A DNA stretch of 47,699 nucleotides from a bacterium (lineage in GTDB: Bacteria > Patescibacteriota > Minisyncoccia > Ryanbacterales > GWA2-47-10b), in the NCBI GenBank assembly GCA_027624915.1, contig JAQBTR010000006.1, positions 1 through 47,699 on the forward strand. Direction: 5' to 3'. Positions 4,568 through 9,340 of the stretch are shown here, piece after piece; the first letter of the stretch is position 1, and each line of letters starts with the position of its first letter. Made by a program: the position numbers and the translations under genes. The notes below the pieces were generated by a model. It had not been told where the DNA came from. It did not search any database and saw only the letters and a list, made by a program, of their open reading frames with translations.

Positions 4568-4720
4568 GAACTGTTCTTAAATTATATATACATTGTGTAC
4601 ATTTTCTAATGGAAAACTCGGACTATTAGTACTCCCCAGCTGAACGCATTGCTGCGCTTACACGTAGAGCCTATCAACCTAGTAGTCTCCTAGGGTCCTC
4701 AAACGATTCCTTATCTTAGG

Positions 4721-4758
<38 letters not shown>

Positions 4759-4768
4759 TCCATACATA

Positions 4769-4801
<33 letters not shown>

Positions 4802-4898
4802 TACACCAGAGGTATGTTCCTCCCGGTCCTCTCGTACTAGGGAGAACTCCCTTCAAGAATCAACGACTGCAGCAGATAGGAGACCAACCTGTCTCACG

Positions 4899-5243
4899 CT
4901 TCTCTTCACGAATTACGTCGTGGAATGGACTATATCTTCCCGATCATTACACACGTAATGATTTAGGGGTTAACGTGTAGTCTCTACGGGTGCTCAAGTG
5001 AGCTTCCCTCGGTATCGCCCTCAAGTAATTACTTGGTCGGGTTTCACCGATATCAGTTAACTTTTTCTTCCCGACCCTATGCAATAAGATCGGGAGACCG
5101 CCGTGATATTTGTTTTGGTTGGTTTTCTATCAACTTGATTTGTTTTAAACGAAAAGACATATATTGATGTCATTGGTGGTTGTATGTAAACAACCATTGG
5201 GATTCAGAATGGTTCAGGTGCCGACAGTTGCATCAGCAACTGA
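4899..5243 (-). other. Group I intron 2 in 23S rRNA (near E. coli position 2593), no ORF
   Basis: The 5' exon ends ...GGTTCAGACCGT and the 3' exon starts CGTGAGACAGG; joining them restores the conserved 23S sequence after helix 92. The exon ends in T and the 345-nt intron ends in G (4899), as required for group I splicing. P7-like AAGATATAGTCC and its partner GTAGAGACTAC lie in the 3' half, with several stable hairpins in the 5' half. Counting from the A2602 equivalent puts the site at about U2593, where a Chlamydomonas chloroplast group I intron is known. No endonuclease is encoded, so it must be inherited or mobilised in trans. Confidence 0.85.
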
Positions 5244-5577
5244 ACGGTCTGAACCCAGCTCACGTACCCTTTTAATTGGCGAACAGCCAAACCCTTGGGA
5301 GCTTCTTCACCCCCAGGATAGGACGAGCCGACATCGAGGTGCCGAACACCGCCGTCGATATGGACTCTTGGGCGGTACCAGCCTGTTATCCCCGGAGTAA
5401 CTTTTATCCGTTGAGCTTTCGCGGCGTCTAATGCCCACGATCGGATCACTATGTTCTGCTTTCGCATCTGCTCGACATGTCCGTCTCGCAGTTAAGCTGG
5501 CTTTTGCCATTACACGACACGTGCGATTTCCATCCGCACTTAGCCAACCTTTGTAAACTCCTCCGTTACTTTTTAGG

Positions 5578-6535
5578 CATTTTGTTAATCTATTCTAAAA
5601 CTTATATTGCATTGTTTTGTGAACATATGGCTCTATAAGCTTTCTAAATTCATGTGCAGACTCACTATATATGTAAATCCGAAATGAATTGTTGCGTTGC
5701 TTGTGTAACCCTGCTTTTATCTTAAATTTATCATCTAAGACACCTGTCAGAATTTGTAATTCTTTCTTTGTATATCCAAGAGAATGAATAACGTATGATT
5801 TATGTTTTGATGACTTTTTTGATCCATCATCCATAAACCATATTGCAAGAGCTAAAGGATCAAGAAACTTATGTATAAGGCGAGGAATAACTTTTTTTCC
5901 ATCCTTATAGAATTGTTGTCTATAGAATCTAAGCTTTCCGCTTGTATACGTTGTAAAACCGTACGCGATAAGTTTTTTTCCTAAGGACGTTCTTATTCGT
6001 TTTTTTGGTGGTGAATGCGTCCAATTCTTGAGTTCGCGCCACAACCAATCTACGTAATCCTTCTGCTTGATAGAGTGTTCGACCTTGAGTCTAAAAACCC
6101 TATCGTTCACTGATTCCATATGTCCATCACCTAACAACAGGCCAATAATAATTGATTGTTGTCGTGGTGTAAGACTAAGCGTCTTTTTTAACTCATGTAT
6201 TTCTTTTGTATTCATATAGATTTGCTCACTACTTATGAGCACTCTTTGTCGCCAAAGAGAGCAGACTATCTCATTCAAGTATCTTCGAAATATATTTATT
6301 TGGGCGAAATATATTTCTGTTATAAGCTCATACCTGATTCAGCGTATAGTCGTTGAGGGCTCGCTTCGTTTTACACGAAGATTGCCTGCTGATTGTCCGT
6401 CGATTTCGACACATTGTCGAAATACCACTCTGTGATTTTTACGGTACAAAATACTCGTACACATGAGATACACGGATGTTCCAGCATATAGCTGAATTTT
6501 ACTAACCCCCACAATGTAACGGCATTGTGTTGTTA
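5578..6535 (-). other. Group I intron 1 in 23S rRNA (near E. coli position 2262), encodes a LAGLIDADG endonuclease
   Basis: The exon sequence GGGGCGCTATCCT joins CCTAAAAAGTAACGGAGGAG, which rebuilds the helix CTCCTCC/GGAGGAG beside the P loop. The 5' exon ends in T and the intron ends in G at 5578, both diagnostic. Core elements in order on the minus strand: CAGCAGGCAATC (P/Q region, about 6390), CAACGACTATAC (R/P7 5' side, about 6350) and GAGATAGTCT (P7 3' side, about 6268). The endonuclease ORF lies 3' of P7. Splice sites were deduced by comparison with E. coli and could shift by a base. Confidence 0.87.
5595..6215 (-). CDS. LAGLIDADG homing endonuclease in the 23S group I intron
   Basis: About 206 aa with two LAGLIDADG motifs in one chain: IIIGLLLGDGH near residue 24 and LALAIWFMDDGSK near residue 123; the acidic residues D in GDG and DD in MDDG coordinate the catalytic metals. 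The enzyme should cut intronless 23S genes at the insertion site and promote intron homing; many members also help splicing as maturases. I prefer the ATG at 6215 because the in-frame ATG at 6278 lies inside the P7 strand of the ribozyme core. The ORF stops 17 nt before the 3' splice site. It is AT-rich compared with the surrounding rRNA, consistent with a mobile intron. Confidence 0.88.
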   Translation of the reverse strand: MNTKEIHELKKTLSLTPRQQSIIIGLLLGDGHMESVNDRVFRLKVEHSIKQKDYVDWLWRELKNWTHSPPKKRIRTSLGKKLIAYGFTTYTSGKLRFYRQQFYKDGKKVIPRLIHKFLDPLALAIWFMDDGSKKSSKHKSYVIHSLGYTKKELQILTGVLDDKFKIKAGLHKQRNNSFRIYIYSESAHEFRKLIEPYVHKTMQYKF

Positions 6536-7705
6536 AGGATAGCGCCCCACTAAAACTGCCCACCAGCCACTGTCCCTCTAGAGTTTTGCTCTAGGGGTTA
6601 GAACTTAATTTTTTAGAGATGAGTATTTCACTGACGACTCCATGTCCCCCAAAAGGGACACTTCAAAGTCTCCTCACTATTCTACGCAATAAAAACCTAA
6701 GCCCAATGACAAGCTGCAGTAAAGCTTCCGGGGTCTTTTCGTCTAGCTGCAGTTAACCGGCATCTTCACCGGTATCGCATTTTCACCAGGTACCTCCTCG
6801 AGACAGTTTTCCAGTCGTTACTCCTTTCGTGCGCGTCGGAACTTACCCGACAAGGAATTGCGCTACCTTAGGACGATTATAGTTATCGCCGACATTGACG
6901 AGGGCTTATACCGTGCAGCAGAAAGACCGAAGTCCAACCACCAACAGTATTTAACCTTCTCGCATTGGTCAGGAGTCACCCTCTATACATCCTCTTACGA
7001 GTTCGCAGAGAGCTGTGTTTTTGATAAACAGTCGCCAGAAATACTTTCGCTGCGGCCCCCACACCATTGCTGGGAGGGGCAGGCCTTATCCCGAAGTTAC
7101 GGCCGCTTTTTTGCCGAGTTCCTTAAGGAGGTCTCACCTGTTCGCCTTGGTCTTCTCGACCCGAGCACCTGTGTCGGTTTGCGGTACGGTTCGATCATAC
7201 ATATTCTTAGAAGTTTTTCTTGGAAGGCTGCTTTGTAGAATTTCTCAACCCGAGGGAAGAAATTTTCACGACGCTTGGAGTTTGTCATCTAAGACAGGGC
7301 CCGGATTTGCCTGGGCACCCTCCTTACGCAATGAACGTAAATCCAATAATACGCTCCACATACTAGCCTCCGTCCCTCCATCGATCTATGACCGAGTTAC
7401 GGAATATTAACCGTATGTCCATCGATTTCAGCTTTCGCCATTACCTTAGGACCGACTAACCCTTGGATGATCACCATTGCCAAGGAAACCTTGCTCTTTC
7501 GGCGTACGGGGCTCTCACCCGTATTGCGGTTACTTGTGCCAACATTCTCTCTTCCATGCGCTCCACCAGCCCTCACGGGTCCGGCTTCACAGCAGATGGA
7601 ATGCTCTCCTACCATATGTAGGCTTCATTGAATAGTCGAGCGAGCTCGCTCGACATTAGGGGTCGTGAGTGAGGAATTCCTCACCCAACTTTTGAAAGTT
7701 TATAA

Positions 7706-7798
7706 AAGCGGAGGCTGGACTTGAACCAGCGACCTTCTGCTTGCCCCCGTAATTCTCTTGGGATTAAGCAGATGCTCTACCAGCTGAGCTACTCCGCC
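7706..7798 (-). tRNA. tRNA-like gene with a 20-nt insertion in the anticodon loop
   Basis: Acceptor GGCGGAG/CTCCGC(T), D arm GCTC-AGCTGGTA-GAGC, anticodon stem TCTGC/GCAGA, variable AGGTC and T arm GCTGG-TTCAAGT-CCAGC all have canonical lengths; position 73 is T. The anticodon loop, normally 7 nt, has 27 nt. If 20 nt after T33 were removed, the loop would read TTGGCAA, anticodon GGC (Ala), but the acceptor lacks the G3-U70 pair of alanine tRNAs, and T73 is typical of glycine tRNAs. Inverted GAAAGTTT/AAACTTTC repeats flank it. Without splicing it should not decode. It may be a processing tag or a relic. No CCA is encoded. Confidence 0.6.
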
Positions 7799-7818
7799 CA
7801 AACTTTCTACTCTCTTCA

Positions 7819-7892
7819 TGGAGCCGGGAGCGATCGAATCTCCGACCTCCCTGCGTGGAACGCAGGGGCTCTACCATCTGAGCTACGGCCCC
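7819..7892 (-). tRNA. tRNA-like gene: alanine-type acceptor with anticodon TCC
   Basis: Acceptor GGGGCCG/CGGCTCC contains G3-U70 and A73, the alanyl-tRNA synthetase identity set. The D arm GCTC-AGATGGTA-GAGC and anticodon stem CCTGC/GCAGG are regular and closely resemble tRNA-Ala, but the loop GTTCCAC places TCC (glycine) at 34-36. The T arm GGAGA-TTCGATC-GCTCC has an A-G mismatch where the conserved G53-C61 pair should be, and the variable region is one base longer than usual. It is therefore either a degenerate tRNA-Ala relic or a tRNA that could put alanine at GGA codons. It lies inside 23S and could supply an RNase P site. Confidence 0.6.
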
Positions 7893-8649
7893 ATAAAACC
7901 TCTGAACTATTCAATGAAACCTACATATCCACACCTTCGGTACTTCGTTTAAGCCCCGATTATTTTCGGCGCGAAGTCTTTTGACGAGTAAGCTGTTACG
8001 CACTTTTTAAAGGATGGCTGCTTCTAAGCCAACCTCCTCGCTGTCTGTAAAACTTCACCTCCTTCTTTGCACTGAACGAAGATTTTGGGACCTTAGATTG
8101 TGATTTGGGCTGTTTCCCTTTTGACCGACGGAGCTTAGCCCCCGTGGTCTGACTAGATATTCTTTAACACCTGCCATTCGGAGTTTGATAGGGGTGTCGA
8201 GATTTCTCCCTGTACAACCCTTCCAGTGCTCTACCTGCAGGTTTGCAATATCCGCTAGCCCTAAAGCTATTTCGGAGAGAACCAGCTATTACTGAGTTCG
8301 ATTAGCTTTTCACTCCTTACCACAAGTCATCCGAACGTTTTGCACGGCGTATCGGTTCGGGCCTCCCTTCGACTTTCGTCGAAGTTCACCCTGCTCATGG
8401 CAAGCTCACCCAGCTTCGGGTCTATTGCAGACTACGTTCAACCATAAAGATTGATAAACGCCCTATTCAGACTCGCTTTCGCTACACCTCCGTTCCCTGA
8501 GGGAACTTAGATTACGTAATGTACAATAACTCGTTGGCTCATGCTTCAATAGGCACACCGTCACCCACACTCAATCCGAAGATCGAGGGGGCTCCGATTC
8601 TTTGTAAGCTTATGGTTTCAGAGACTATTTCATCGCCCTCTACGGGCTG

Positions 8650-8688
<39 letters not shown>

Positions 8689-9340
8689 TTTCAAAAGTAT
8701 TTAGCCTTAGCCGTATAGTTCGGCTGGATTCCTCCTACCTTATCGTGTGTAGAAGTACTCAAGAAACCATCAATGAGAACGTTACTTTTTCGCATACAGG
8801 ACTATCACCTTCTTTGGTCGGGCTTTCCAGCCGCGTTCCGCTAAAGTATCGTTTTTATAACTCACATTATCCGAAGATAATAAGATGGCTCTTACAACCC
8901 CACCCTATGAACATTTTGACGAATCAAACTGTTCAAGTTGGATGGTTTGGGCTGTTCCCTTTTCGCTCGCCGCTACTCGGGGAATATGAAATACGTTCAT
9001 CACCAACATCGATGGAACGACGCGGGTGATAAAAGTATTTCGTTTTTTTCTTTTCCTCCAGGTACTGAGATGTTTCACTTCCCTGGGTACGCTACTGGCA
9101 CATTGCTATGTCAGCTGATGCAATTATTCATCGCAACGGGTTTCCCCATTCGGATATCGTCGGATCATAGGTTGCTCGGCACCTACCCGACGCTTAATGC
9201 AGCCAAGCCACATCCTTCATCGCCTTTTGAAACCTAGGCATCCACCATAAGCTCTTAATTGTTTTCCATTAGAAAATGCACACTGCATCTGAAAAAACCT
9301 AAATATATTGGGATATATTTTGGGATTGTTACAAACTCGC

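Follow-up and report, generated by a model that had tools for sequence, protein, structure and literature searches.

tRNA-like cloverleaves within a helix-45 intervening sequence of a Patescibacteriota 23S rRNA gene

Intervening sequences in helix 45 of the 23S rRNA are usually regarded as selfish stuffing, and that of Salmonella is also located in this helix. The helix-45 insert of Coxiella has a 28-bp stem. According to the available text of PMC4990558, it is cut by RNase III in vitro, its excised RNA is degraded, and it is termed a selfish element. In the candidate phyla radiation (CPR), 82% of 23S genes carry insertions of 100 bp or more, and the available text describes short insertions that are not introns and sit at known intervening-sequence sites as suspected of being of that type (Tsurumaki et al. 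2024, PMC11270868). The main text of that paper, as available, contains neither “trna” nor “transfer RNA”. A literature search, in which one broad topic was sampled partly, found among the papers listed no bacterial precedent for tRNAs in a 23S insert. This agrees with an earlier note on the DNA described here, whose author knew of no such insert holding tRNAs.

The window, defined here as the whole 47,699-nucleotide stretch that was analysed, contains a 23S rRNA gene at positions 4608 to 9268 on the minus strand (RF02541, 2201.5 bits, model positions 1 to 2925). This is the sole full-length 23S match in the genome (G000), an 839-kb draft of 31 contigs that is 98.6% complete. The gene contains a 315-nucleotide insert at 7614 to 7928, minus strand, that falls between RF02541 model positions 1218 and 1219 in the cmscan alignment. 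We take the helix interrupted at this point to be helix 45. The insert is present once in the G000 genome. The alignment bears out the coordinates of the earlier note, and its 23-bp stem is essentially right, as pairing runs unbroken for 24 pairs from the base of the helix.

The insert (all features on the minus strand) is composed of, in RNA order, a 5’ arm, tRNA-like 1, tRNA-like 2, a hairpin, a terminal hairpin, and a 3’ arm. The 5’ arm of the closing stem (7907 to 7928) aligns with the arms of four other inserts described below and pairs with the 3’ arm (7614 to 7635). tRNA-like 1 is located at 7819 to 7892 (ARAGORN 7818 to 7893) and matches RF00005 with 46.6 bits and an E value of 5.6e-9. 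tRNA-like 2 is located at 7706 to 7798 (ARAGORN 7705 to 7799) and matches with 59.6 bits and an E value of 1.5e-12. The gathering score of RF00005 is 29 bits, and the two cloverleaves that had been read from the letters are thus accepted by both ARAGORN and Rfam. The anticodon loop of tRNA-like 2 (7741 to 7767) is 27 nucleotides long and is predicted to form an extended hairpin. In the predicted fold, one hairpin (7662 to 7689) follows tRNA-like 2 and precedes the terminal hairpin. The terminal hairpin (7635 to 7654) abuts the 3’ arm, as in the four related inserts. The region 7600 to 7945, which is the insert with short flanks, folds with a z of −6.8, and none of 100 shuffles is as stable. 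No intron covariance model matches inside the insert, RF00028 being found only at 6242 to 6528. No tmRNA match is present in the Rfam listing of the window, which omits lower overlapping matches of the same clan.

Other features of these rRNA genes were recorded. The RF00028 match is a group I intron in the same 23S gene (6242 to 6528, minus strand, 65.5 bits). It is adjoined by an ORF of 227 amino acids (5595 to 6278, minus strand), which presumably is LAGLIDADG homing endonuclease-like. The 16S gene is located on another contig (C15:6133-7669), about 6 kb from the nearer contig end, so the 16S and 23S genes appear to be unlinked. A 91-nucleotide 23S fragment lies between ORFs on a further contig (C24:11375-11465; L174, about 976 to 1066) and matches 23S model positions 2125 to 2216 with 59.7 bits. 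This fragment, which we take to be probably the L1-stalk region, is absent from a later scan.

The two tRNA-like sequences depart from ordinary tRNAs in different ways. tRNA-like 1 combines an alanine-tRNA-like body, including G3:U70, the alanine identity pair, with a UCC (glycine) anticodon in a 7-nucleotide loop. An A53.G61 mismatch replaces its G53-C61 pair, and it lacks CCA. Among the ordinary tRNAs compared, Ala-TGC tRNAs from other genomes come nearest, with 81 and 80% identity. tRNA-like 2 has all four stems, a canonical T-loop, and the G53-C61 pair; it lacks CCA, and the tRNA that its body most resembles is a Gly-CCC tRNA from another genome. Besides the insert, 38 tRNAs were called by ARAGORN in the stretches of the G000 genome that were examined, and separate genes are called for Gly-TCC, Gly-CCC, Ala-TGC, Ala-GGC, and Ile-GAT. 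A deviant loop length or a deviant G53-C61 pair is present in three of the three ARAGORN-called insert tRNAs (two in G000 and one in genome G006) and in none of the 82 other tRNAs of these two genomes (Fisher 1.0e-5, with criteria picked after looking). The count of none includes one tRNA-Ser that was flagged by the script through a misparsed arm and was judged normal by eye.

The earlier note had proposed that processing enzymes would, if the insert is active, simultaneously split the rRNA and free tRNAs from the insert, linking rRNA maturation to tRNA supply. The acceptance of both sequences by ARAGORN and Rfam, the four stems and canonical T-loop of tRNA-like 2, and the 7-nucleotide anticodon loop of tRNA-like 1 are what such genes would have. 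We nevertheless consider working tRNA genes improbable here. The 27-nucleotide anticodon loop would have to lose a 20-nucleotide intron, and we know of no bacterial splicing route for one. tRNA-like 1 carries A53.G61, and under the alanine identity rule its alanine body with a glycine anticodon would misread. The isoacceptors have separate genes, and the modules of the relatives are still further from tRNA, with expanded arms or non-tRNA loops. The two modules are probably not working tRNAs, and decoding has probably been lost; the idea of tRNA supply is not upheld. A spliced form of tRNA-like 2 (Ala-GGC or Ile-AAT) was also considered and is unlikely, given the splicing route that it would need and a body nearest to Gly-CCC.

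Related genomes were searched at three levels. Within the same family, the site is a short helix with nothing inserted in three genomes (G001, G002, and G004), and G003 gave no match. The order was represented by 10 genomes, seven of them with a 23S match, and the class by 55 genomes, 47 with a 23S match. Genomes listed for the class range from 0.4 to 1.5 Mb, which together with the insertion-rich 23S suggests a CPR lineage. The 23S set from the class is composed of 49 records (L074 to L122). ARAGORN called a tRNA in one of these 49 records (L111), which belongs to G006, a genome of the same order as G000 and of a different family. The G006 insert is also located in helix 45, is present in one copy in its genome, and folds at a z of −7.1. 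Its module matches RF00005 with 51.9 bits, the lowest of the 45 RF00005 matches in G006, and has an anticodon loop of 11 nucleotides. The interior is unlike the G000 insert in sequence and alike in fold, being tRNA-like, and the stem is similar and covarying. BLAST with the G006 insert as query did not recover the G000 insert. MAFFT aligns the G006 module with tRNA-like 1. A proposed homology of this module with tRNA-like 2 is not upheld; its score of 27.9 was inflated by masked letters that had been counted as matches.

Helix-45 inserts across the class are highly diverse. Those of G008 and G009, both of the same order as G000, have no tRNA match, and G012 and G050 have no helix-45 insert, with 34 nucleotides between the anchors. 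Paired helix-45 anchors are absent from the regions of seven genomes that match parts of the G006 insert.

Several inserts of other kinds were observed in these records. Three helix-45 inserts (L095, L107, and L118) are rich in TCAAATGTC-like repeats and fold as long hairpins, and three more (L105, L109, and L122) contain other AT-rich self-complementary repeats. L119 (G036, minus strand) has, by eye, a helix-45 insert of about 600 nucleotides with a long near-perfect stem and an interior of two short ORFs and no tRNA-like module. In L088 and L089 (G021 and G049), the 23S gene has an insertion that lies upstream of helix 45 and, by eye, seems to code for a GIY-YIG-like protein.

Helix 45 was located in 47 of 50 records, these being the 49 class records and the window. 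Inserts of at least 60 nucleotides number 19, and the 18 of at least 100 nucleotides were all given a cloverleaf test. With tRNA-like loop limits (strict search), the inserts of G000, G006, and G026 (L116) pass, with none of 300 shuffles as good; those of G013 (L110) and G052 (L102) do not. With longer D and anticodon loops, limits that were set after the folds of G013 and G052 had been seen, all five pass and none of 200 dinucleotide shuffles reaches the score. Since both searches accept only stems in which every position pairs, the finding of intact stems partly follows from the method; the unconstrained folds of G013, G026, and G052 also contain acceptor and T stems. Among the other 13 of the 18 inserts, 12 have no cloverleaf (one of them, L119, was mis-anchored and its true insert is longer), and L105 has a weak one that is matched by 12 of 200 shuffles. 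The five genomes belong to four families (G000 to f1, G006 to f2, G013 to f7, and G026 and G052 to f20), which makes an assembly artefact unlikely.

The modules share a core and differ outside it. A 7-bp acceptor stem and a 5-bp T stem are paired in every module except tRNA-like 1, and predicted folds place a hairpin directly before the 3’ arm in five of five inserts. N-CCA follows the module in G013, G026, and G052 and is absent in G000 and G006. Neither U33 nor the D-loop GG is present in the G026 module, whose T-loop is 8 nucleotides long. In the G052 module, the D-loop is very much longer than usual and the T-loop is not canonical. Neither the G026 nor the G052 insert has an Rfam tRNA match, and among the modules of the four relatives only that of G006 has one. 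Covariance-model support, which the earlier note had made decisive for the cloverleaf, extends to three of the six tRNA-like sequences examined, namely the two of G000 and the one of G006.

The G013 module (L110, 1914 to 2013, minus strand) has a long arm where the anticodon arm should be. A tmRNA match lies exactly on it with 24 bits and an E value of 2.9e-6, which is below the Rfam gathering score, and drops to 9.4 bits in a shorter search; both G000 modules, in contrast, are reported as tRNA. Its acceptor stem and T-arm, its CCA end (the likeness includes the CCUCUCCACCA end), and the long arm that replaces the anticodon arm are like those in the tRNA-like domain of tmRNA. Because of this resemblance, a tmRNA origin of the G013 module is possible.

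The closing stems of the five cloverleaf inserts have 21 to 24 contiguous pairs. The other 13 inserts have 0 to 16, the 0 being the mis-anchored L119, with the exception of L087, which has 24 and is not tRNA-bearing. The five stems align without gaps over 21 pairs, and all 105 of 105 cells are paired, a value that is partly so by construction since the arms had been defined by taking those ends of each insert that pair. Changes on both sides are found at 15 of the 21 aligned pairs, and three of the 21 are invariant. Slid-register controls are 34 to 46% paired. In shuffle tests of the stem, none of 500 shuffles came up to the observed value on four of five measures; on the remaining one, further pair types, 31 of 500 did. 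The ten pairs that the five inserts form have on average 24.9 of 44 arm positions identical, versus 13.1 (sd 4.5) for other insert pairs, two of which are equally alike (30 and 32 of 44). Between G000 and G006, the two arms are identical at 14 and 15 of 22 positions (binomial 1.4e-4 for 14 of 22 at p=0.25), 21 of 22 pairs are kept in both, and six pairs have double changes. From the shared stem register, motif, and identity, we infer that the five inserts descend from a common ancestor.

The search of relatives that the earlier note had proposed gives a divided result. The five inserts with a similar stem all keep a cloverleaf, and their interiors differ in sequence. The note had also held that the same stem around an unrelated interior would speak against its reading. 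Inserts without a tRNA do occur in the same order, in G008 and G009, yet the five of similar stem have the cloverleaf.

The origin of the insert was sought in wider searches. The G000 insert was compared with a 379-genome sample of the phylum at an E value of 1e-6; it matches 23 other genomes, and in all 23 the matches fall on an ordinary tRNA. With these matches and a single copy in G000, a mobile repeat was rejected. The G006 insert, searched against 383 class genomes at an E value of 0.01, matches at least 168 others; among the matches listed, these are short stretches, mostly of the D-arm. A phage origin was likewise rejected. There, 30 records match, and the annotated ones among the matches listed are nearly all tRNA genes; one unannotated record matches over 123 nucleotides.

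A pattern scan of the whole collection, which may leave out records near the window, for a tRNA D-arm 30 to 60 nucleotides past the helix-45 base returned two matches, both by chance. L128, in which Rfam matches nothing, looks protein-coding, and the L129 match falls on an ordinary tRNA-Val in a record that lacks a 23S match. A similar pattern in the 383 class genomes was found only in G000 and G006, with one match of the reversed control in another genome. Both scans need an ordinary D-arm and miss modules like those of G013, G026, and G052, so they are no proof of absence elsewhere.

One alternative is that tRNA genes, or mobile pieces derived from tRNA, landed in a tolerant helix 45 and are decaying there with a fold that has no role. 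In its favour, both G000 modules are still near ordinary tRNAs of other genomes, and helix-45 inserts in the class are highly diverse. The selfish element described for Coxiella (PMC4990558, in its available text) points the same way. Against such passive remnants, the G006 cloverleaf stays paired with no close ordinary tRNA among 127 distinct tRNAs compared, and those of G026 and G052 stay paired with no Rfam tRNA match. The similar covarying stem and the hairpin are common to all five inserts, and those of G000 and G006 each occur only once in their genomes. We regard passive remnants as possible and, on balance, doubtful. The cloverleaf recurs in interiors that differ in sequence, and we therefore judge that its shape more likely has a role than persists by chance.

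A different alternative is that the insert is never processed and that mature 23S stably retains it as a protein-binding, tRNA-shaped domain exposed to solvent. The very stable folds of the G000 and G006 inserts fit such a retained expansion, whereas a perfect stem of at least 21 bp is a typical RNase III substrate. By the title of a study cited in PMC8708148, E. coli 23S can work with unprocessed intervening sequences; the Coxiella helix-45 insert, by the available text of PMC4990558, is excised. We consider this alternative very unlikely.

The best reading, and in our judgement a fairly probable one, is that these are intervening sequences of the RNase III type that carry a decoding-dead tRNA-like module whose shape is kept for processing. 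The scaffold of this helix-45 family is a perfect closing helix of at least 21 bp, a tRNA-derived cloverleaf, and a 3’ hairpin against the helix, with the cloverleaf present twice in the G000 member. RNase III would most likely cut the closing helix in the pre-23S, the insert would be discarded, and the resulting two-piece 23S would be held together by the ribosome. Cleavage by RNase III and the split of the 23S are plausible by analogy with described inserts.

Sequence, loops, and arm lengths vary among the modules while the acceptor and T stems stay, which suggests that it is mainly for its compact fold that the module persists. The acceptor/T-arm stack is what RNase P and RNase Z read, and for this reason cutting by these enzymes would be the simplest role for the shape. 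Sites for both enzymes may be present in the module, and such cuts would aid removal or trimming of the insert. We put forward only tentatively a further step, in which RNase P and RNase Z recognise the module as a tRNA-shaped signal and, together with RNase III, cut the 23S in two; common machinery would then serve the maturation of tRNAs and of ribosomes, as it does in organelles.

The recurrence of the design in five genomes suggests an undescribed RNA element tied to rRNA cutting. A family that keeps a tRNA shape under sequence drift would itself be a structured RNA element, and through it one could test directly if bacterial rRNA can be fragmented by tRNA-processing enzymes. tRNA calls within the 23S genes of such genomes need not be usable tRNAs, and they call for caution.

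Among bacterial systems, the G000 insert is like the CPR insertions of PMC11270868 (as described in its available text) in being short, non-intron, and located at an intervening-sequence site of the 23S. It is like the Coxiella helix-45 insert in its similar size, long terminal stem, and scattered distribution (PMC4990558 and PMC8708148, in the available text of each). The two differ in content, since tRNA-like cloverleaves and a 3’ hairpin are found here and an S23 protein ORF is found in the Coxiella insert, as far as the available text describes it. Helix-45 intervening sequences of Coxiella, Salmonella, and others are excised by RNase III without ligation, whereas excision of the G000 insert is a prediction. 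In our comparison, the nearest analogue is the mitochondrial large-subunit (LSU) rRNA whose parts are separated by tRNA genes, and the LSU rRNA of Tetrahymena mitochondria is of this kind. The available text of PMC2996981 describes LSU parts separated by tRNA genes in oyster mitochondria as well, where the segments are far apart and have protein genes between them. Unlike these mitochondrial genes, the G000 gene is one continuous bacterial 23S with its tRNA-like modules inside an insert closed by a stem.
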